Assembly (NCBI RefSeq): GCF_025628965.1
Contig: NZ_JAOTEN010000001.1
Span: 248,001-312,000 of the forward strand
Direction: 5' to 3'
Length of the DNA stretch: 64,000 nucleotides
Origin: Chryseobacterium gilvum
GTDB taxonomy: Bacteria > Bacteroidota > Bacteroidia > Flavobacteriales > Weeksellaceae
Shown piece after piece: positions 35,509 to 46,233 of this stretch (positions are counted from its first letter, which is position 1; every line of letters starts with the position of its first letter). The position numbers and the translations under genes are program-made. Below the pieces are notes generated by a model. It ran no database searches. It had not been told where the DNA came from and was given only the letters and a program-made list of their open reading frames with translations.

Positions 35509-37230
35509 TTACGATTCAGCCAAAGGCAACATGAAATAAAAAGTACTGCCCTGATTGACAGCGCTTTTTACTCCGATTTCTCCGTTTTGTTTTTCAATGA
35601 AATTTTTAGAGATTGCCAAACCCAAACCTGTTCCGTTCTGATGTTCTCCGGGAACCTGAAAATAACGGTCAAAAATCTGGCGGTGGTATTTTTCATCAAT
35701 TCCGGAACCGGTGTCTGTAATGCTGAACTGTATGAAGGAGCTGATTTTTTCAACAGTTACAGTGATATTTTCATCCTGAAAAGAATGTTTAATCGCATTG
35801 CTAAGAAAGTTATTGAGCACCCAAACCGTTTTATCAAAATCTGCCAAAACAGCATCATTGTCATCCAGAATATACGATGTGGTGATGGAGATATTTTTCT
35901 GTTCGGCAAGCTTTTCTACATTTTTGACGGAAGCCTGAAGCAGGTCTTTCGGAAGGCAGCTTTCTATTTTTAATTTGATGTTTCCGCTTTCTACCTGAGA
36001 AAGGTTGAGCAATTCTCCGGTAATATCCAGTAAACGCTGTCCGTCTTCGTTAATGCTTTTCAGGAGCTCTTTCTGTTGCTCATTCAATGCACCGAATTTT
36101 TCATTTTCCATCAGCTGAACGCCCATTTTTATGGCAGCAATAGGGGTTTTAAGTTCGTGGGAAATGGTGGCAATAAAGTTGGTTTTTGCAAAATCAAGCT
36201 CTTTAAAAGGGGTGATATTCCGTAACAAAATCACTTTGCCGATGTATTTTTTTTCTTTTTCGCCTGTTTTTACAATATTGATGGGGACAATCTCCTGCTC
36301 AAAATAATTTTCTTTGTTATCGGCTGCAATTTTAAGTGAGTCTTTCGAAGGATGATCGATATTTTTTAATAATTCTCTGATCAGATCATTGTTTACGGCA
36401 ACTTCGTGCACTGTTTTTCCGATGATTTCTTCCTTGTTGAGGTTGGTGATTTTCAAAGCTTCATCATTGATCATGTAGATAAAATGATTTTCATCCAGGC
36501 CAATTACGGCATCATGCATGTTGTTGACCAGCGTTTCGATTCTTTTTTTATCCATCAGCTGTTTAGAAAGGTTGCTGCTTTCGTATTCTTCGAGTTTTTC
36601 TGCCATGATGTTGAAAGAATTGGCCAGATCATTAAATTCTGCGCTTCCTTTAAAATGCACCCTTTCGTTATAATTTTTATTGGCGATTTGGCGGATGCTG
36701 AACGTGAGCTGGTTGATCGGTTCTGCGATGGTTTGAGGGAGATTAAAAAGTAAAATGAAAGCAATCAGAAAGCAGACCGTTCCTAAACTTACGATCCAGA
36801 ACGTTGCGTTTTCTGCGGTGAGAATGGCGATATCACTTTTCCGTTCAATCCCTTTCATGTTGATAGACATAATCCTGACCAGATCTTCGCGGATGTGTTT
36901 TTCTTTTTCCGTATCGGGAGATTTTAAATAGCTTTCAAAATGAAGGTTAAGGTTTTGGGTGGCTTCTTTTTCTCCAAATTCGGTGAGGTTTTTTTCCTGT
37001 AAAATAGTATTTTTCCTGAAATCCTTAACGGCAATCGCACTGTCGGTTTTTATTTTATCCAAAGCCAGAAGCATATTCTGGGAAAACTCTAAACTGTTGT
37101 AATTGGCAGTAAGAATTTTTTCTGTATCGGTTTTTAACCTGTTGATGTATACCGAACCTATTACGGAAAGTAAAACGATGAGTATAAACAAAATACCTAC
37201 TCCCAATGTGAGTTTAGTTTTGATTTTCAT
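35509..37230 (-). CDS. Membrane histidine kinase of the Kdp locus (separate kinase half)
   Basis: A 573-residue sensor kinase. Two transmembrane helices (about 7-28 and 143-164) enclose a helical periplasmic domain, followed by HAMP, a PAS domain (LVNNMHDAVIGLDENHFIYM), and a kinase core with the H-box ISHELKTP, an N-box FLSNAIKHS, and G-boxes DTGSGI and GTGLGLAI. It begins 2 bases after the KdpD sensor gene stop, so the two are coupled. In most bacteria KdpD is one chain with an N-terminal sensor and a C-terminal kinase; here the halves are separate genes, as seen in Bacteroidota. The likely partner is the sigma54-type regulator at 44908. Confidence 0.85.
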   Translation of the reverse strand: MKIKTKLTLGVGILFILIVLLSVIGSVYINRLKTDTEKILTANYNSLEFSQNMLLALDKIKTDSAIAVKDFRKNTILQEKNLTEFGEKEATQNLNLHFESYLKSPDTEKEKHIREDLVRIMSINMKGIERKSDIAILTAENATFWIVSLGTVCFLIAFILLFNLPQTIAEPINQLTFSIRQIANKNYNERVHFKGSAEFNDLANSFNIMAEKLEEYESSNLSKQLMDKKRIETLVNNMHDAVIGLDENHFIYMINDEALKITNLNKEEIIGKTVHEVAVNNDLIRELLKNIDHPSKDSLKIAADNKENYFEQEIVPINIVKTGEKEKKYIGKVILLRNITPFKELDFAKTNFIATISHELKTPIAAIKMGVQLMENEKFGALNEQQKELLKSINEDGQRLLDITGELLNLSQVESGNIKLKIESCLPKDLLQASVKNVEKLAEQKNISITTSYILDDNDAVLADFDKTVWVLNNFLSNAIKHSFQDENITVTVEKISSFIQFSITDTGSGIDEKYHRQIFDRYFQVPGEHQNGTGLGLAISKNFIEKQNGEIGVKSAVNQGSTFYFMLPLAES

Positions 37231-37232
37231 AT

Positions 37233-38354
37233 TTAAGATAAAATAATAATGTCTATTTGCCTTTCGTTTAATCGGTTCATTAACGTATAAATCCAGCTGT
37301 ATCCGAATATTCCCCGCCAGAATCCGGGATGGGGCTTCCCGATGCAGACGGTGGTGATATGATGTTCGATAACGTATTCCAAAATTCCTTTCTGCAGGCT
37401 GTTTTCTTTTACCCGAATGACTTTGGCTCCCAATTCTTGTGCTAAATTAAAATTATTAATCAAATAACGCTGTTTGTCCAGTGCTATTTTTTCAGGATTT
37501 TCAGAAGGTCTCTGAATATACAAAACCGTCCAAGGACTGTTGTAATAACTCGCCAGTCGTGCCGTTTTCCGGATGATATTTTTCGCTATTTTCTCATTAC
37601 TGCTGATGCAGGCAAGAAATTTTATAGGTTTGAAATGTTCGGTTTTAATTTCTGTTTCTACCTTTTTTTCGACATGAGTGGCCACTTCTTTCAAAGCCAG
37701 TTCGCGAAGCTGCAGAATATGGCCGCTCTGAAAAAAATTGTTCAGGGCGGTCTGTATTTTATCCTTTTTATAGATTTTTCCTTCTTTCAGTCTTGTTAAA
37801 AGCTCATCTGAAGTCAGGTCTATATTCACCACCTCATCTGCAAGGGCAAGAATTTTATCGGGAACCCGTTCTGTAACTTCAATGCCGGTTATTTTTCTTA
37901 CTTCTTCGTTTAAACTCTCAATGTGCTGAATATTCATAGCACTGATAACGTTGATTCCGTTGTCAAGGATTTCTAAAACGTCCTGCCATCTTTTTTTATT
38001 TTTTGAGCCTTCGATATTGGTGTGTGCCAATTCATCTACCAAAACCACTTCAGGATGCGTATTGATAATCGTCTGAAGATCCATTTCCTCCAGGTTTTTA
38101 CCTTTATAAAATGCAGAACGCCTTTCAATTTCAGGAATTCCGTCTACTAATGCGGCTGTTTCTTCACGACCATGCGTTTCGATGTATCCAATTTTTACAT
38201 CCATTCCGTTCCTCAATAATGCATGAGCTTCCTGAAGCATACGAAATGTTTTTCCTACGCCTGCGCTCATTCCGATATAGATTTTAAACTTTCCTTTTCG
38301 GGATTTTTGAATGAGTTCTAAAAAATGTTCAGCTTCTCTTTTCTCGGGCTTCAT
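37233..38354 (-). CDS. kdpD: KdpD sensor domain protein (N-terminal KdpD half with USP domain)
   Basis: 373 residues from ATG 38354; a GTG 27 bases upstream is possible but less typical. It has the KdpD P-loop GMSAGVGKTFRML, the IGYIETHGREET and VLVDELAHTN motifs, then a universal-stress-type domain (about 235-373, LACISSNEKIAKNIIRK, VCIGKPHPGFWRG). No transmembrane or kinase part follows. The family senses potassium shortage or osmotic stress; here it must act through the separate kinase next door. It lies after the porin gene with a repeat element in between. Confidence 0.88.
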   Translation of the reverse strand: MKPEKREAEHFLELIQKSRKGKFKIYIGMSAGVGKTFRMLQEAHALLRNGMDVKIGYIETHGREETAALVDGIPEIERRSAFYKGKNLEEMDLQTIINTHPEVVLVDELAHTNIEGSKNKKRWQDVLEILDNGINVISAMNIQHIESLNEEVRKITGIEVTERVPDKILALADEVVNIDLTSDELLTRLKEGKIYKKDKIQTALNNFFQSGHILQLRELALKEVATHVEKKVETEIKTEHFKPIKFLACISSNEKIAKNIIRKTARLASYYNSPWTVLYIQRPSENPEKIALDKQRYLINNFNLAQELGAKVIRVKENSLQKGILEYVIEHHITTVCIGKPHPGFWRGIFGYSWIYTLMNRLNERQIDIIILS

Positions 38355-38430
38355 TTTTATTTTTTTTAAATGTAAAGTCACAATGAAAGTACTAAATGGT
38401 GTTTTTAAAACATAAAATCTGTTTTAGTTT

Positions 38431-38505
38431 GTCATTCTGACCAAAGCGAAGCGGAATGAGGAATCTAAATTATAATGTTGAAACTCTCCTTGGTCAGATG
38501 ATAAA
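38431..38505. repeat. Dispersed-type imperfect inverted repeat (REP-like)
   Basis: GTCATTCTGACCA at 38431 onward is mirrored by TGGTCAGATGAT ending near 38502, and AAGCGAAGCGGAATGAGGAA lies inside. The core resembles an intergenic repeat I know from flavobacterial genomes. Only one copy is seen in this window. It lies between the porin and the KdpD sensor gene. Confidence 0.5.
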
Positions 38506-38527
38506 CAATAGGGTTTCTTTTTTAAAA

Positions 38528-39898
38528 TTACAATCTAAACATCACTGCCAATGTCACTCTGCTATCCGATTTTCTCAAATCCGGTCTCCAGGAATCAACA
38601 GGTGTGTCCATCCATCCATCCGGACTCGTCGTTCCTTGAGGCCCTGCGAAATAAGGGATATTGCTTTTTCTAAAACCATATTCTAATCTGAACGTTACAA
38701 ATTGATTCGGCATGACATCAACGGTTGCCGTCCCTTGAAGCATTTTAAGTTTCTCACCATTTGCAAGGGCATCATTAAAATCGTTATTCGGAACCGGAGA
38801 TGGAGAGAATGCCAAGTACGCTCCAGGATTTGAGATGGCATCTGCTCGTAAAGACAAAGCAACTTTATTATGATGGAACCAGAGCCTATTGGCGATAGAT
38901 GTTCCGATCATGTAATTGTCTTTTGCTTTAAGGCCACCTCCGCTCTGGAATCCGTAATGGTTGTTGATGCTGAAAGCAGCCTGTGACAATCCGTTGCTTT
39001 CTTTATTATGAAAATATCTCGCTACAATACTGTGATCATGGTGAAAACGACGTACATCAGAATTATTTCTCGTGTCTTTTCCGTTTAAATAGAAATTGGC
39101 CACCAACTGAAGATTTTCATTCGGGCGGTAATAATTGGAAACACCCAAACCGAGACCTTTATTCCAGGAATTATAACTTTGCCAACCGTTTAGTATCCAA
39201 AGTTCAACTTTATATTTTTTTGAAGGATACGCCTGAATTCGGGCTCCCTGAAAATAGAATGGTGTGAAATCGCAGACCAGACTTCTCTGATAATTCCAGT
39301 TTTCACCTAAAACATAGCTTTCCAAACCGATGTAGCTCATAAAAATCCCCGCTTCCACATTTAAGCCATGCATGACGTTAAAATGATAACCTGCCGCAGC
39401 TTCGCGAATGTTTTTTAAATTATCTACACTGGTATTTTTCCCGTGATTTACCGTTCCGTCGAGATCCTGAACAATAGAACCCATTTGCCCATATTGTAGC
39501 CATAAACGTCCGATCATATTTTTGTAATTGGTTTCCAGGCCAATACTTGTCATATTGATAGTAAATTCGTTGGAACGGCCGATCGCTGCTGAAATCGTGT
39601 GAGTATTATCTTTTGGATTCCGGAAATCGTAATTATAGTAAGCATCTACGTAGGTTACCCCTGTTAAAATTGTTTCTCCATCTTTATCTTTTAAGGTTAA
39701 AGGAAAATCTGTCTGGCGGTTTTGGCCATTGATCCAGGTCAGATCATATCCTTCAAACGGAATTTTTGAATCCGTTTTTACTATTAACGAATCTTTTGGT
39801 GATTCTGAGACCGAATCTCTCTTGATTTCCTGAGCATTCATTTGACTTAATGCTGTCAATCCTAAAAAAAATGCAGCCTGAATAGTTGTTGATTTCAT
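38528..39898 (-). CDS. Outer-membrane beta-barrel porin of the Kdp operon
   Basis: A 456-residue protein with signal peptide (cleavage after MNAQ) and a body of amphipathic beta strands rich in aromatic residues, ending in VTLAVMFRL, a typical final barrel strand with a C-terminal hydrophobic residue. It belongs to the barrel family often called putative beta-barrel porin-2. It lies between kdpC and the KdpD gene on the same strand, so it probably helps potassium or other small solutes cross the outer membrane when Kdp is induced. That role is inferred from context. Substrate selectivity is unknown. Confidence 0.83.
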   Translation of the reverse strand: MKSTTIQAAFFLGLTALSQMNAQEIKRDSVSESPKDSLIVKTDSKIPFEGYDLTWINGQNRQTDFPLTLKDKDGETILTGVTYVDAYYNYDFRNPKDNTHTISAAIGRSNEFTINMTSIGLETNYKNMIGRLWLQYGQMGSIVQDLDGTVNHGKNTSVDNLKNIREAAAGYHFNVMHGLNVEAGIFMSYIGLESYVLGENWNYQRSLVCDFTPFYFQGARIQAYPSKKYKVELWILNGWQSYNSWNKGLGLGVSNYYRPNENLQLVANFYLNGKDTRNNSDVRRFHHDHSIVARYFHNKESNGLSQAAFSINNHYGFQSGGGLKAKDNYMIGTSIANRLWFHHNKVALSLRADAISNPGAYLAFSPSPVPNNDFNDALANGEKLKMLQGTATVDVMPNQFVTFRLEYGFRKSNIPYFAGPQGTTSPDGWMDTPVDSWRPDLRKSDSRVTLAVMFRL

Positions 39899-39939: not shown

Positions 39940-40497
39940 TTATTTGATTTGACCCAAAGCAATATTTAATTTCAAAACATTGACTTTAGAAGGTCCAAAA
40001 AGTCCTAAAAGAGGTTTTTCCGTTTGATTTTCAATTAAATTTTCGATTTTTTCAACAGAAATATTTCTTGCCTTTGCAATTCTTTTGGCTTGGTACAGCG
40101 CGCCTTCCGGAGAAATATCGGGGTCCAATCCGCTTCCGCTTGCGGTAACCAGCTCTACAGGAACTTTTGCATTTTCCATTTCCGGATTTTTCATTTTCAA
40201 CGTATCAATTCTTTTTTGTACGGTTTGCAAATATTCCTGATTGCTCGGTGCTTTATTGCTTCCCGCACTTCCCGCCGCGTTATAATTGACTGCAGAAGGA
40301 CGGCCATGAACATATTTTTCTGCTTTAAAGTCCTGTCCGATATTGACGTAGAATTTCTTCCCGTTATGATTAATAATTTCGGCGTTTCCATGTGTCGGTA
40401 AAATTTTTGAACCTACATAAACGATTCCTAAATAAATTCCGACGATCACCAACATAGCGAATGTTAATCTGAATGCTGATAAAATATGATTTTTCAT
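39940..40497 (-). CDS. kdpC: Potassium-transporting ATPase subunit C
   Basis: A 185-residue subunit with a single N-terminal transmembrane helix (LTFAMLVIVGIYLGIVY) and a periplasmic domain. The family signatures GRPSAVNYNAAGSAGSN and VTASGSGLDPDISPEGALYQ are intact. KdpC stabilises the complex and raises affinity for ATP or coupling. It starts 12 bases after the kdpB stop and is followed 41 bases later by the porin gene. Length is normal. Confidence 0.95.
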   Translation of the reverse strand: MKNHILSAFRLTFAMLVIVGIYLGIVYVGSKILPTHGNAEIINHNGKKFYVNIGQDFKAEKYVHGRPSAVNYNAAGSAGSNKAPSNQEYLQTVQKRIDTLKMKNPEMENAKVPVELVTASGSGLDPDISPEGALYQAKRIAKARNISVEKIENLIENQTEKPLLGLFGPSKVNVLKLNIALGQIK

Positions 40498-40509
40498 TTT
40501 AATTAAATT

Positions 40510-42549
40510 TTAGAATAATAAACTGACACCTAAATCAATAACCTTAATTCCTATAAATGGGGCGATAATACCGCCTAAACCATAAATCAAAAGATTTCTT
40601 CTCAACAGCGCGCTTGCTCCGATCGGCTTGTAGGCAACTCCTTTTAAAGCCAATGGAATTAGGAATGGAATAATCACCGCGTTGAAAATAATGGCTGATA
40701 AAATGGCCGATTCCGGGCTGTGAAGATTCATAATGTTTAGTTTCTGAAGCGCCGGAATAAATGTGATAAACAGTGCCGGAATAATGGCAAAATATTTAGC
40801 AACGTCATTGGCAATACTAAACGTTGTCAATGTTCCACGGGTCATTAATAGCTGCTTCCCGATTTCTACAATCTCGATTAATTTTGTCGGGTCATTATCC
40901 AGGTCGACCATATTCCCGGCTTCTTTTGCGGCTTGAGTTCCGCTGTTCATGGCAACACCCACATCGGCTTGGGCAAGAGCAGGGGCATCATTGGTACCGT
41001 CGCCCATCATTGCTACCAATTTCCCTTCCTGCTGTTCTTTTTTGATATAATTCATCTTATCTTCAGGCTTGGCTTCCGCGATAAAATCTTCTACACCGGC
41101 TTTTTCTGCGATAAATTTTGCAGTTAACGGGTTATCTCCAGTGACCATTACGGTTTTCACACCCATTTTTCTCAGTCGCTGAAAACGTTCCTGAATTCCG
41201 GTTTTGATGATATCCTGAAGCTCAATCACACCCCAAACTTGGTCATTTACAGAAACCATTAAAGGGGTTCCGCCGTTTTCAGATATTTTAGTGGTTGCTT
41301 CCTGGGTTTCTGGTGGAAAAATATTTCCTGCTTTTTCGGTCAATTGTTTAATTGTGTCATAGGCACCTTTTCGGATTTTTTTATTTTCAAAATCAATTCC
41401 TGAAGTCCGGGTTTCAGCCGTAAAATCAATATAAACAGGGTTACTTACCAATAAATCTTCTGATTTTAACTGGCTTAATTCAATAATCGATTTTCCTTCC
41501 GGAGTTTCATCGGCAACAGAACTTAATGCCGAAGCTTTGATAAATTCTTCAAGTTGAATTCCATTTGAAGGATGAAATTGAGTTGCTTTACGGTTTCCGA
41601 TGGTGATGGTTCCTGTTTTATCGAGCAATAAAACATCAATATCTCCTGCAGTTTCAACGGCTTTACCGCTTTTTGTGATAACATTGGCGCGTAATGCTCT
41701 GTCCATTCCTGCGATTCCGATTGCAGAAAGCAGACCGCCGATCGTTGTGGGTATGAGACAAACGAAAAGTGATATTAATGCTGCAATAGTGATCGGCGTC
41801 TGCGAATAATCTGCAAAAGGTTTTAACGTGACGGTAACAATAATAAAGGTAAGCGTAAAGCCTGCTAAAAGTATGGTTAATGCGATTTCGTTGGGTGTTT
41901 TCTGTCTTGAAGCGCCTTCTACAAGAGCAATCATTTTATCAAGAAAAGATTCTCCCGGTTTTGTAGTGACTTTGACTTTTATTCTGTCAGAAAGTACTTT
42001 TGTACCGCCTGTTACGGAACTTTTATCACCTCCGGCTTCTCTTATTACGGGTGCGCTTTCTCCGGTGATAGCAGATTCATCAATAGTTGCCAAACCTTCG
42101 ATAATTTCCCCGTCCATTGGGATCTGATCGCCTGTTTCACAAAGGAAAATATCTCCTAATTTCATATCGGCAGATATTTTAAGTTCTGTTTCTACCTGAA
42201 ATCCGGGTCTGTTATCAATGATCAGTTTTGCCGGAGTTTCTTCACGTGTTTTTCTGAGCGTATTGGCTTGTGCTTTTCCCCTTGCTTCAGCGATGGCTTC
42301 GGCAAAATTGGCAAATAAAACCGTGAAAAAAAGGATGATGAAAACTGAGAAATTATAGGTAAAACTTCCCTGGGATTGACCTCCCGATACGCTGAATATA
42401 CTTACGATAAGCATGACGGCCGTTCCGATTTCTACCAGAAACATGACCGGATTTTTAAACATAATTTTCGGATTCAGCTTGACAAAAGACTGTTTGATCG
42501 CTTCATTTACCAAATCTTTTTGAAACAATGTCTGTGATTGATTTTTCAT
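40510..42549 (-). CDS. kdpB: Potassium-transporting P-type ATPase subunit B
   Basis: A 679-residue catalytic subunit in the inner membrane that uses ATP to drive K+ uptake through KdpA. The phosphorylation motif [12 protein letters not shown], the actuator TGES (AITGESAP), the hinge [10 protein letters not shown] and [10 protein letters not shown] are all present. The order of transmembrane helices, two before the actuator and others after, is normal. It is separated from kdpA by 142 AT-rich bases with no recognisable element, which is a wider gap than in many kdp operons. kdpC follows 12 bases downstream. Confidence 0.97.
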
Positions 42550-42691: not shown

Positions 42692-44386
42692 TTATTTAGA
42701 AAAATATTGAAGTTGTTCCGCAATTGGCCCTAAAGTAAGCGCAGGAAAAAATGACAATGCTGCGATCAGAAGAATAACGGCCAAAGTCATAAATCCGAAA
42801 GTTGCGGTATCTGTTTTCAAAGTTCCTGAGCTTTCCGGAATGAATTTTTTCTGAGCTAAACAGCCTGCAATCGCAATCGGACCAATAATTGGGATAAATC
42901 TTGAGAATAATAACACAATTCCTGTCGAGATGTTCCACCAAGGCGTATTGTCGCCTAATCCTTCGAATCCTGAACCGTTGTTGGCCGAAGAAGAAGTAAA
43001 TTCATACAAGGTTTCACTAAAACCATGAAATCCGGGATTATTCAGTGTTTTTGCTCCGAATTCAGGGAAATAAGCTGTTAAAGCGGTTCCTACAAGAATT
43101 AAAAACGGGTGGAATAAAGCCACAATCATTGCGATTTTCATTTCTTTGGCTTCAATTTTTTTACCCATGAATTCGGGTGTTCTTCCCACCATTAAACCAC
43201 TCATAAACACCGCGAGAATGATGAAAATGAAATAGTTTAAAATTCCAACTCCACAACCGCCGTAGAAACAGTTGATCATCATCGCAAGCAGTTGATTCAT
43301 ACCAGAAAGTGGCATCATGCTGTCGTGCATCGCATTCACAGAACCGGTAGAAATGACAGTTGTTGCAATACTCCAATATCCTGAAGCTGCGCTTCCGAAG
43401 CGGATTTCTTTGCCTTCCATGGCTCCCAGATGACGGTCGGCTCCCATTTCTGTAATTAATGGATTCCCATTTGTTTCATTTATAATTGTCGGAACAGTTA
43501 ATGCCAGAAAACCAATCGTCATGACGGTAAAAATGGTCCATGAGAGTTTTCTTTTCTTTAGATAAAATCCTAACGCAAAAACCAAAGCAAAAGGAATGGC
43601 CATTTGAGTAACCATTTCGGTTATATTCGTAAGATAGTTCGGATTTTCAAGCGGATGCGCTGAATTGGCTCCAAAAAATCCACCGCCATTTGTTCCTAAA
43701 TGCTTAATCGCTATGAAAGCTGCAGCAGGACCCCTGGAAACATCAACTTTTTGGCCTTCCAAAGTAATGATGTGATCTTTACCTTCAAACGTCATTGGCG
43801 TTCCGTTGGCAGAAAGGATAAAAGCCACAATAATACTGATCGGAATTAAAATTCTGATGACCGATTTCGTAAAAAAATCATAGAAATTTCCTAATTCTGT
43901 TGTGGTCTTTTCTTTAAATGCTTTAAAAAGTACTGCCATAGCTGCCATTCCGGTTGCGGCCGTTACAAACTGCAAAAACATGAGATACAGCTGGTTCAAA
44001 TAGCTCACTCCTGTTTCACCCGAATAGTGCTGCAGATTACAATTCACAAGGAAAGAAATTGCGGTATTAAAGGCAAGATCCGGTGACATATTGGGATTTC
44101 CGTCGGGGTTTAAAGGAAGCCAAAATTGAGTTGATAAGATAACAAACCCGATGATGAACCAAACCAAGTTGATGGTTAACATGGCAAACATATTCTGTTT
44201 CCAGGTCATTTGACGGTTTGGATTGATGCCTGAAATTTTATAAATAAAATTTTCAACCGGCTGAAAAATGGCATCTAAAAAAGTTTTTTTATACCCGTAA
44301 ACATCAGCAATATATTTTCCTAAGAAAATACCCATGACGAGCGTGATTGCGAACATGGCAATAATGCCCAAAATTTCTGTATTCAT
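42692..44386 (-). CDS. kdpA: Potassium-transporting ATPase subunit A
   Basis: A 564-residue channel-like subunit with about ten transmembrane helices. It shows the repeated selectivity-filter-type loops expected of KdpA (SFLVNCNLQHYSGE, AIKHLGTNGGGFFGANSAHP, TGSVNAMHDSMMPL, SSSANNGSGFEGLGDN). It binds K+ and passes it on to KdpB for transport. The ATG follows the kdpF stop by 9 bases. Length and loops are normal, so the transporter is probably functional. Confidence 0.97.
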   Translation of the reverse strand: MNTEILGIIAMFAITLVMGIFLGKYIADVYGYKKTFLDAIFQPVENFIYKISGINPNRQMTWKQNMFAMLTINLVWFIIGFVILSTQFWLPLNPDGNPNMSPDLAFNTAISFLVNCNLQHYSGETGVSYLNQLYLMFLQFVTAATGMAAMAVLFKAFKEKTTTELGNFYDFFTKSVIRILIPISIIVAFILSANGTPMTFEGKDHIITLEGQKVDVSRGPAAAFIAIKHLGTNGGGFFGANSAHPLENPNYLTNITEMVTQMAIPFALVFALGFYLKKRKLSWTIFTVMTIGFLALTVPTIINETNGNPLITEMGADRHLGAMEGKEIRFGSAASGYWSIATTVISTGSVNAMHDSMMPLSGMNQLLAMMINCFYGGCGVGILNYFIFIILAVFMSGLMVGRTPEFMGKKIEAKEMKIAMIVALFHPFLILVGTALTAYFPEFGAKTLNNPGFHGFSETLYEFTSSSANNGSGFEGLGDNTPWWNISTGIVLLFSRFIPIIGPIAIAGCLAQKKFIPESSGTLKTDTATFGFMTLAVILLIAALSFFPALTLGPIAEQLQYFSK

Positions 44387-44395
44387 AGTAACTGA

Positions 44396-44476
44396 TTAAA
44401 ATTTATCAGGTTTTATTAAAACGTAGCAGATGTATACAAAAGCGAGTATCGAAAGCAAAAATAAACTCAACATCAT
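44396..44476 (-). CDS. kdpF: KdpF small membrane subunit
   Basis: A 26-residue single-helix peptide starting MMLSLFLLSILAFVYICYVL and ending IKPDKF, which matches the typical KdpF C-terminus (a Pro-acidic-Lys/Arg-Phe end). KdpF sits in the KdpA-KdpB membrane complex and stabilises it. It lies 9 bases upstream of kdpA. It starts 1 base after the stop of another tiny ORF. The second Met codon (44473) is an alternative start. Confidence 0.85.
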   Translation of the reverse strand: MMLSLFLLSILAFVYICYVLIKPDKF

Positions 44477-44477
44477 T

Positions 44478-44561
44478 TTATAGGGTATCAAAAAATTCAA
44501 CAGATTCATATAAAAGCCAAAACATCGCGGCACAAAGCGGCACTAAAATAATGAACATCAT
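44478..44561 (-). CDS. 27-residue membrane peptide upstream of kdpF
   Basis: MMFIILVPLCAAMFWLLYES, then VEFFDTL and TAA. This is one hydrophobic helix followed by an acidic C-terminus. The ATG overlaps the preceding stop (ATGA) and the stop is 1 base from the kdpF ATG, so translation is tightly coupled. The position suggests an additional small Kdp subunit or a leader. Family unknown. Confidence 0.55.
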   Translation of the reverse strand: MMFIILVPLCAAMFWLLYESVEFFDTL

Positions 44562-44665
44562 ATCGTTGCAATTAATGTTAAAATGGTAAAAATTGTATAG
44601 GATACCATCAGCAGACTAAATTTTGAATGCTCTTGTTTTTTGGATTTTTTTCCTGAAATTGTCAT
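44558..44665 (-). CDS. 35-residue membrane peptide heading the kdp operon
   Basis: A basic N-terminus (MTISGKKSKKQEHSKFS) precedes one hydrophobic helix (LLMVSYTIFTILTLIATI) running to the C-terminus. It is the first cistron after the probable sigma54-type promoter, and its stop overlaps the next ATG. It may be an extra Kdp regulator or subunit. No homologue is known to me. Confidence 0.5.
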   Translation of the reverse strand: MTISGKKSKKQEHSKFSLLMVSYTIFTILTLIATI

Positions 44666-44681
44666 TTTAGAATATTTTATT

Positions 44682-44697
44682 TGAATTCTATATGCCA
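44682..44697 (-). promoter_or_regulatory. Candidate sigma54 promoter of the kdp operon
   Basis: On the minus strand TGGCA (44697-44693) has the -24 GG. Ten bases later the -12 element reads TC in place of GC. It is a weak match, but the nearby regulator carries a sigma54-interaction motif. Confidence 0.35.
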
Positions 44698-44778
44698 AAA
44701 GAAAGTCCGTTTTGAAATTTTTGCTTTTAAATTGTTGAATAATAGTATTTTACAGAATTTCGGGATCATGTCCTAAAA

Positions 44779-44805
44779 GAAAAAAGCCTATCAAAATGAT
44801 AGGCT
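44779..44805 (-). terminator. Terminator of the sigma54-type regulator gene
   Basis: AGCCTATCA and TGATAGGCT form a perfect 9-bp stem with a 3-base loop, followed on the minus strand by six T. It separates the regulator from the kdp transcript. The remaining DNA from 44387 to 44907 holds only the small ORFs and the promoter region described. Confidence 0.88.
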
Positions 44806-44907: not shown

Positions 44908-46233
44908 TTATCGTAATTCATATTCTTCCAATTTGCGATATAGCGTTGCAATACCGATTTCCAGCAATCGTGCCGCTTCAGCTTTATTGCCTTTTGTGTA
45001 TTGAATCACTTTTTGAATGTGCTCTTTTTCTAAAGATCGCATACTTAAAGAATCATTTTCTGCAGTATTTTTTTCAGAATAGTGAGGAAGACTTTCTGTA
45101 TCTAAGATTTGGTCATTCATTAGGATCAGGCTTCTTTCAATTGTATTTCTTAATTCCCGGATATTTCCTTTCCAGTCGTTTTTTTCTAGGGCTTTATAAT
45201 AATCCGAAGAAACGTGAACCGATAATAGGTTGAGTTTTTGAGAAAATATATCAATGAAGTTTTTAGCCAAAATTTTAAGGTCTTCTTTTCTTTCCCGGAG
45301 AGGAGGAAGATGAATGTCGAAAATATTTAACCTGAAATAAAGATCTTCCCGGAAATGACCCTGTTTTATTTCGTCTTCCAGATTTCTGTTGGTGGCAGCA
45401 ATAAGCCTGAAATCTGACTTTGAAACTTTTGTTTCGCCCATTTTGATAAATTCTTTCGTTTCCAATACGCGGAGCAGCTTTGCCTGAAGTTCGATGGGCA
45501 TTTCGCCAATTTCGTCTAAAAATAAGGTTCCTCCATTGGCTTCTTCAATGAGTCCTTTTTTATCTTTTATAGCACCCGTAAAAGAACCTTGCTTGTGCCC
45601 GAAAAGTTCGCTTTCCAGAATCTCTTTGCTGAAAGCAGAACAGTTGATGGCAACAAAATTATTTTTCTTTCGGTCGCTTCCTTCATGAATAGCACTGGCG
45701 AAAACTTCTTTACCGGTTCCGGTTTCACCTGTCAAAAGGACAGTTGCATTGGTTAAAGCCACTCTTTCTGCCAGTTTTTTAGCTTGGAGAATTAAAGGGG
45801 AATTTCCGATAATCTGATTGAATCCTTTCTGAATATTGCTTTTCTGAACGATTTTAGAATGGTTGTCTTTTGATTTTTCCAGTGCTTTATACACGAGCGG
45901 AATAATTTTCTCATTATCATCACCTTTTACCAGATAATCGTATGCTCCGTTTTTCATGGCCTGAACGGCATCCGTGATATTTCCGAACGCGGTCATCAAA
46001 ATGATTTCAAGGTGAGGGTATTTGACCTTGATAGATTTTACCATATCGATTCCGAAGGCATCGGGAAGACGAACGTCGCTTAATACCACATCAAAAGCAT
46101 ATTGTTCCAGCATGGTCATTGCAGAACGCGCAGTGGAGGCTTCTTTTACAGTAAAATTTTCCTGGGAAAGAATCATTCCCAAAAGTTTCAGGAGCTTGAT
46201 CTCGTCATCAATGATCAGAATATTTCCGGACAT
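44908..46233 (-). CDS. NtrC-type sigma54-dependent response regulator, Kdp-linked
   Basis: A 441-residue regulator in three parts. The receiver has an intact phosphoacceptor Asp53 in VVLSDVRLPDAFG. The AAA+ domain has Walker A GETGTGKE (169-176), the sigma54-contact loop GSFTGA, Walker B GGTLFLDEIGEMP and an arginine-rich RLNIFDIHLPPLRER. The Fis-type helix-turn-helix reads KGNKAEAARLLEIGIATLYR. It lies directly upstream of the kdp operon, on the same strand but with its own terminator. It takes the place of the OmpR-type KdpE of other bacteria, so kdp may be run by sigma54 here. Cognate kinase is probably the one at 35509. Confidence 0.87.
   Translation of the reverse strand: MSGNILIIDDEIKLLKLLGMILSQENFTVKEASTARSAMTMLEQYAFDVVLSDVRLPDAFGIDMVKSIKVKYPHLEIILMTAFGNITDAVQAMKNGAYDYLVKGDDNEKIIPLVYKALEKSKDNHSKIVQKSNIQKGFNQIIGNSPLILQAKKLAERVALTNATVLLTGETGTGKEVFASAIHEGSDRKKNNFVAINCSAFSKEILESELFGHKQGSFTGAIKDKKGLIEEANGGTLFLDEIGEMPIELQAKLLRVLETKEFIKMGETKVSKSDFRLIAATNRNLEDEIKQGHFREDLYFRLNIFDIHLPPLRERKEDLKILAKNFIDIFSQKLNLLSVHVSSDYYKALEKNDWKGNIRELRNTIERSLILMNDQILDTESLPHYSEKNTAENDSLSMRSLEKEHIQKVIQYTKGNKAEAARLLEIGIATLYRKLEEYELR

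Follow-up and report, generated by a model that had tools for sequence, protein, structure and literature searches.

The window, the whole 64,000-nucleotide stretch of Chryseobacterium gilvum DNA that was analysed, carries on its minus strand a kdp operon headed by three mini-cistrons in the order ORF1, ORF2 and kdpF, followed by kdpA (Table 1). All of the frames set out in the earlier note were present on this strand, with lengths of 35, 27 and 26 residues, an ATGA overlap and a 1-base gap. The ATGA at 44558-44561 is common to the ORF1 stop and the ORF2 start, and the ORF2 stop lies 1 base from the first KdpF ATG and 4 bases from a second ATG (44473). This second ATG may be the true KdpF start, giving 25 aa, because KdpF orthologues are 25 aa long. 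ORF2 ends in a conserved C-terminal tail of the K-S-V-E-F-F-D-K-I type. Farther downstream, the sensor domain of KdpD and a histidine kinase were observed as two separate genes (within 35509-39898, minus strand).

Table 1. Features of the kdp region in the window, with supporting matches.
Feature	Position	Strand	Description
Histidine kinase (separate)	35509-37230	-	HATPase_c/HisKA/PAS/HAMP
KdpD-type sensor domain protein	37233..38381	-	PF02702 E=2e-91
BBP2-type outer-membrane barrel (beta-barrel porin)	38528-39898	-	between kdpC and the KdpD sensor/kinase genes
kdpC	39940..40497	-	PF02669 E=3.2e-60
kdpB	40510..42549	-	TIGR01497, 1020 bits
kdpA	42692..44386	-	PF03814 E=1.7e-228; TIGR00680
kdpF	44396..44476	-	26 aa as written, MMLSLFLLSILAFVYICYVLIKPDKF
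ORF2	44478..44561	-	27 aa, MMFIILVPLCAAMFWLLYESVEFFDTL; one membrane helix; second cistron
ORF1	44558..44665	-	35 aa, MTISGKKSKKQEHSKFSLLMVSYTIFTILTLIATI; basic N-terminus and one membrane helix; first kdp cistron
GG-N10-GGC box	44694..44708	-	possible sigma-54 (-24/-12-like) promoter; conserved
Sigma-54-dependent response regulator	44908..46233	-	PF00158 E=2.2e-70, PF00072, PF02954

For comparison, 80 named Chryseobacterium and Elizabethkingia loci were pulled via KdpA, giving 81 loci with the window. The third mini-cistron scored below the cut-offs of both KdpF models (TIGR02115: E=1e-4, 22.2 bits, cut-off 26.85; PF09604: E=0.0022, 18.3 against a cut-off of 21.2). Its identification as KdpF, already made in the earlier note, is supported by the P-E/D-K-F ending and the site before kdpA, which are kept in 81/81 loci. 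Neither ORF1 nor ORF2 matched these two models; no Pfam match was found for either, and NCBIfam gave YniD at E=0.16 only. Both are similar to KdpF in length (25-35 aa), in having one membrane helix, in their place at the head of the kdp operon and in being kdp-specific, but they are without the Y-x-x-Y-x-L-x-x-P-E-K-F type ending and occur besides KdpF, not instead of it. Comparison of the ORF2 and KdpF profiles gave a probability of 3.4% (E=0.013), and the possibility that ORF2 is a second KdpF was ruled out by the family scans and the profile comparison (2-3% for ORF2-type sets).

Of 80 loci, 78 have a GG-N10-GGC box no more than 60 nt from the ORF1 start, sitting 23-30 nt before ORF1; with the box of the window, the 5' leader before ORF1 would be ~17 nt. 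The conserved box just upstream points to ORF1 as the first cistron transcribed. The assignment of the box as a sigma-54 promoter is tentative, because its -12 part has TTGGC in place of TTGC and because the canonical sigma-54 consensus is missing from most loci (found upstream of the operon in only 5 of 64). Judging from its position, the response regulator is likely the activator of the kdp operon. The kdp leader showed no special RNA structure (z-score of the fold, 0.84), nor did it match Rfam above threshold; a structured leader RNA or riboswitch was rejected on these two results. A terminator-like hairpin, GCCTATCATTTTGATAGGC, followed by a T run (44780-44804, minus strand), was also observed between the regulator gene and the kdp operon and is conserved in the aligned loci.

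Conservation and selection of ORF1 and ORF2 within Bacteroidota

The case made in the earlier note hinged on the frames being kept in related genomes, and they recur in the 81 loci. ORF2 was found in all 81 and ORF1 in 80, the single exception (L011) being a contig that ends before ORF1. Of the 80 loci with both frames, 78 show an overlap of exactly 4 nt. Substitutions favoured third codon positions in both ORF1 (permutation p = 0.0002) and ORF2 (p = 0.0004), and pN/pS was 0.367 for ORF1 and 0.225 for ORF2, compared to 0.091 in KdpF and 0.132 over the first 100 KdpA codons. Given this third-position bias and the low pN/pS, both ORFs are coding sequences under purifying selection, which is stronger on ORF2.

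We searched an ORF2 profile in 296 genomes spread across Bacteroidota and obtained 30 matches at E<1e-5, with the next best match at E=1.3e-3. Every one of the 30 was located just upstream of kdpA, such that the genetic linkage of strong matches to kdp was exclusive. Some of these 30 genomes had contributed to the profile, while at least nine had not (G755, G584, G572, G801, G813, G726, G525, G469, G497). Weaker hits in three genomes (G761, G708, G696) were also located at kdpF, and most of the kdp loci read from more divergent Bacteroidota showed a one-helix peptide before kdpF. The tail consensus in the phylum is F-W-L-F-Y-K-S-I-x-F-F-E-K-I, with F14, F24 and I27 conserved at 90% or more.

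Two other kinds of protein were seen around this position. Four loci of one deep Bacteroidota family (L211-L214) carry a rather different one-helix peptide of ~30 aa in the ORF2 position, e.g. MNVYQTLYLGILIFLVIAGLGALAGIIFHL. A soluble protein of ~90-110 aa, or its C-terminal end, was observed upstream of ORF2 in five loci (L115, L117, L133, L157, L160); DUF7674 was the match for the L115 copy (E=7.8e-19). In the window, no such protein was seen in the stretch from the regulator to ORF1.

An ORF1 profile built from 14 sequences was searched in 296 family genomes from 33 genera. Strong matches (E <= 7.7e-11) were found in 116 genomes, one per genome, all within Chryseobacterium and Elizabethkingia, and those compared with the kdpA places lay just upstream of kdpA. 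Elsewhere among the 33 genera only weak matches were obtained, at E of 8e-4 or worse. Sister genera have other short basic one-helix ORFs, either before ORF2 or between kdpF and kdpA; profile comparison of these with ORF1 gave ~2%, and they were treated as analogues, not homologues. One such type is a 36-41 aa one-helix ORF with a basic N-terminus, found between kdpF and kdpA in other Weeksellaceae (L169, L170, L177, L178, L180, L173-L175), e.g. MNRKIIHRIKEWGILIFWISFIIAFLYLVITVKEFALIH, for which there was no Pfam match and no detectable relation to ORF1. The distribution of ORF1 is best explained by a younger, lineage-specific addition to the kdp operon. The earlier note had treated the two ORFs alike and proposed checking both for conservation upstream of kdpF in Bacteroidota. 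Such conservation holds for ORF2, which is wider than was thought (phylum-wide, and probably far beyond), but not for ORF1, which is confined to two genera.

ORF2-like peptides outside Bacteroidota

Plasmid records supplied the non-Bacteroidota kdp loci, and E. coli K-12 served as the reference. A short one-helix ORF ending at the kdpF start, often with an ATGA overlap, was observed in Mycetohabitans, Caballeronia, Rhizobium, Sinorhizobium, Acetobacter, Novosphingobium, Azospirillum, Thalassospira, Haematobacter, Deinococcus, Rhodococcus, Bacillus, Listeria, Niallia and Subdoligranulum. A short one-helix peptide beside kdpF, in addition to KdpF itself, was found both in Bacteroidota and in other phyla. 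These ORF2-type peptides, encoded next to kdpF, are 26-37 aa long; those of other phyla mostly start with M-D or M-x-D, and many have C-D-R/K-L-like ends.

The number of such ORFs was compared with that expected from dinucleotide shuffles, using a fixed hydrophobicity threshold, for 28 kdpF-bearing loci (18 other-phylum plasmid loci, E. coli, 2 Bacteroidales plasmids and 7 deep-branching relatives). A hydrophobic ORF ended at the kdpF start in 18 of the 28 loci versus 0.14 expected, and in 11 of the 19 loci outside Bacteroidota versus 0.11 expected. Listeria, Niallia, Thalassospira and Haematobacter fell just under the threshold. Two types of loci were left out of the test, namely those in which no kdpF could be recognised upstream of kdpA (cyanobacteria, Sphingobium) and those where the peptide comes second to kdpF (Burkholderia stagnalis, Allomeiothermus). 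An ORF2-like peptide follows kdpF in Burkholderia stagnalis and Allomeiothermus silvanus (L200 ~776-858, L201 ~773-853). On the Sphingobium plasmid (L192) the genes run kdpB-kdpA-kdpC, and neither kdpF nor ORF2 was seen before kdpA. The E. coli kdp locus lacks ORF2, and an ORF2-like peptide is apparently missing from the kdp loci of Halobacterium, L. plantarum, Synechocystis and Arsenophonus.

With the Rhizobium peptide as query, 180 plasmid records were matched, 15 of them from Deinococcus, and the D. radiodurans match lay directly upstream of kdpA. Five Rhizobium/Phyllobacterium ORF2-like sequences had a pN/pS of 0.38. Comparison of the Bacteroidota and other-phylum sets by hhalign gave a probability of 61% (E=8e-5) with 16% identity over 25 columns, as against 2-3% for one-helix controls (KdpF, other one-helix ORFs). 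Because of this difference from the controls, homology of the ORF2-type peptides across phyla, judged from very short hydrophobic sequences together with their position, is likely, though short of proven.

The suggestion of the earlier note that these frames are missed by standard gene calling agrees with the annotation of the ORF2-type gene, which is mostly unannotated or misnamed and has no curated family match. Among the matches listed for the Rhizobium peptide, most had no annotated gene, in a PLSDB gene table that is itself incomplete. A specific annotation was seen only for a 34 aa Mycetohabitans peptide (WP_212667346.1), named 'potassium ABC transporter ATPase' in RefSeq, which is the wrong name for a 34 aa peptide. 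This peptide is encoded directly before kdpF with an ATGA overlap and has one helix, as ORF2 does; it carries an N-terminal M-D-L and a C-D-K-L motif, differs from ORF2 in its longer C-terminus, and probably corresponds to ORF2 in proteobacteria. It had no match among the NCBIfam or Pfam models, and a literature search under its RefSeq name found no paper. A Phyllobacterium 'hypothetical protein' of 57 aa in RefSeq (L210:508-681) ends in an ORF2-like peptide, and its annotated start is probably too far upstream. ORF2 itself had only chance-level matches in Pfam, NCBIfam and PDB. In the open-licence literature, beyond which a description could exist, we found none of an extra Kdp small protein; the small-protein literature found had KdpF as an example or in references only.

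Candidate roles at the Kdp pump

We consider it likely that the ORF2 product is a single-span accessory subunit or regulator of Kdp that has been overlooked, with ORF1 as a younger addition, a reading drawn from comparison of sequences. A small protein packing on the pump in the way of KdpF fits the kdp linkage, the gene overlap and the selection on the sequence. Selection and kdp linkage likewise support the 'extra small subunits or regulators' of the earlier note, and we infer their action on the pump. If translated and inserted into the membrane, the ORF2 product would be co-produced with the Kdp pump as a single-span membrane protein. It would most likely bind the pump within the membrane, as KdpF does, and binding would make the assembled complex more stable or adjust its activity. 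In E. coli, KdpF, a one-helix product of the kdp operon, is described as a subunit with a stabilising effect on the complex in vitro (Gassel et al. 1999, cited in PMC12629597). By positive-inside reasoning the ORF2 topology is likely N-out/C-in, which would put the conserved tail at the cytoplasmic side of the membrane, and the basic N-terminus of ORF1, a predicted one-helix protein, is probably cytoplasmic (N-in). The overlap between ORF1 and ORF2 resembles that of translationally coupled genes. Since E. coli Kdp works without ORF2, the pump mechanism does not depend on this peptide. CydX, AcrZ, MgtR and sarcolipin are one-helix peptides that accompany other membrane enzymes. These are like ORF1 and ORF2 in size and in having a single helix, and CydX also in being an operon member, but no sequence relation was found in family scans and the likeness is an analogy only.

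A broader proposal, to which we give slightly less than even weight, is that the Kdp of most bacteria is a five-subunit complex, with E. coli KdpFABC as a reduced form and ORF1 as a sixth protein in Chryseobacterium and Elizabethkingia. In such a complex ORF2 alongside KdpF would change stability, lipid contacts or activity.

It is conceivable, though rather unlikely, that ORF2 and ORF1 are regulatory rather than structural, modulating turnover or shutting the pump when potassium returns, in the manner of sarcolipin, phospholamban and MgtR on other P-type ATPases. Single-span peptides of ORF2-like size do regulate other P-type ATPases, ORF2 is optional, as its absence from E. coli indicates, and ORF1 evolves faster than ORF2 (pN/pS 0.37). 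However, the sequence cannot tell a regulator from a stabilising subunit, and the fixed operon place points to constant co-production with the pump. We think it improbable that the peptides act instead on the KdpD-type protein or the kinase, feeding pump status back to transcription. The sensor genes do lie downstream of the pump genes in the same direction, and bacterial membrane peptides can interact with sensor kinases, as described in PMC3618439. Across differing neighbourhoods, however, ORF2-like peptides adjoin kdpF, not sensor genes.

The remaining two readings deny the peptides a function. The mini-ORFs could be leader cistrons whose translation matters, through coupling or attenuation at kdpF-kdpA; the ATGA overlap in 78/80 loci and the short gaps to kdpF are typical of translational coupling. 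Purifying selection on the amino-acid sequence and a C-terminal tail motif kept phylum-wide argue against functionless peptides, as do the unremarkable leader fold (z=0.84) and the lack of a significant Rfam match, and we regard this explanation as very improbable. AT-rich sequence often contains ORFs of 27-35 codons, and ORF1 and ORF2 might be chance open frames between the promoter and kdpF; this is contradicted by the conservation, selection and kdp-linkage tests, which already refute it and leave it practically no probability.

KdpFABC, a textbook ion pump, is taken to consist of four subunits. Its structures are all from E. coli, whose kdp locus is without ORF2: the KdpA chains in PDB comprise three distinct sequences, each 557 aa long and from work on E. 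coli Kdp, and no Kdp structure from an ORF2-bearing organism was found there. Our analysis places an extra predicted one-helix protein in Bacteroidota and at most of the other bacterial kdp loci sampled, and corrects the annotation of a gene that is usually uncalled or wrongly named. ORF2 appears to be the important part, by which a local curiosity probably grows into an overlooked component of Kdp, and ORF1 appears to be lineage-specific. If this is true, the model organism would be the exception, and Kdp structures and activity measurements would miss a component of the pump.
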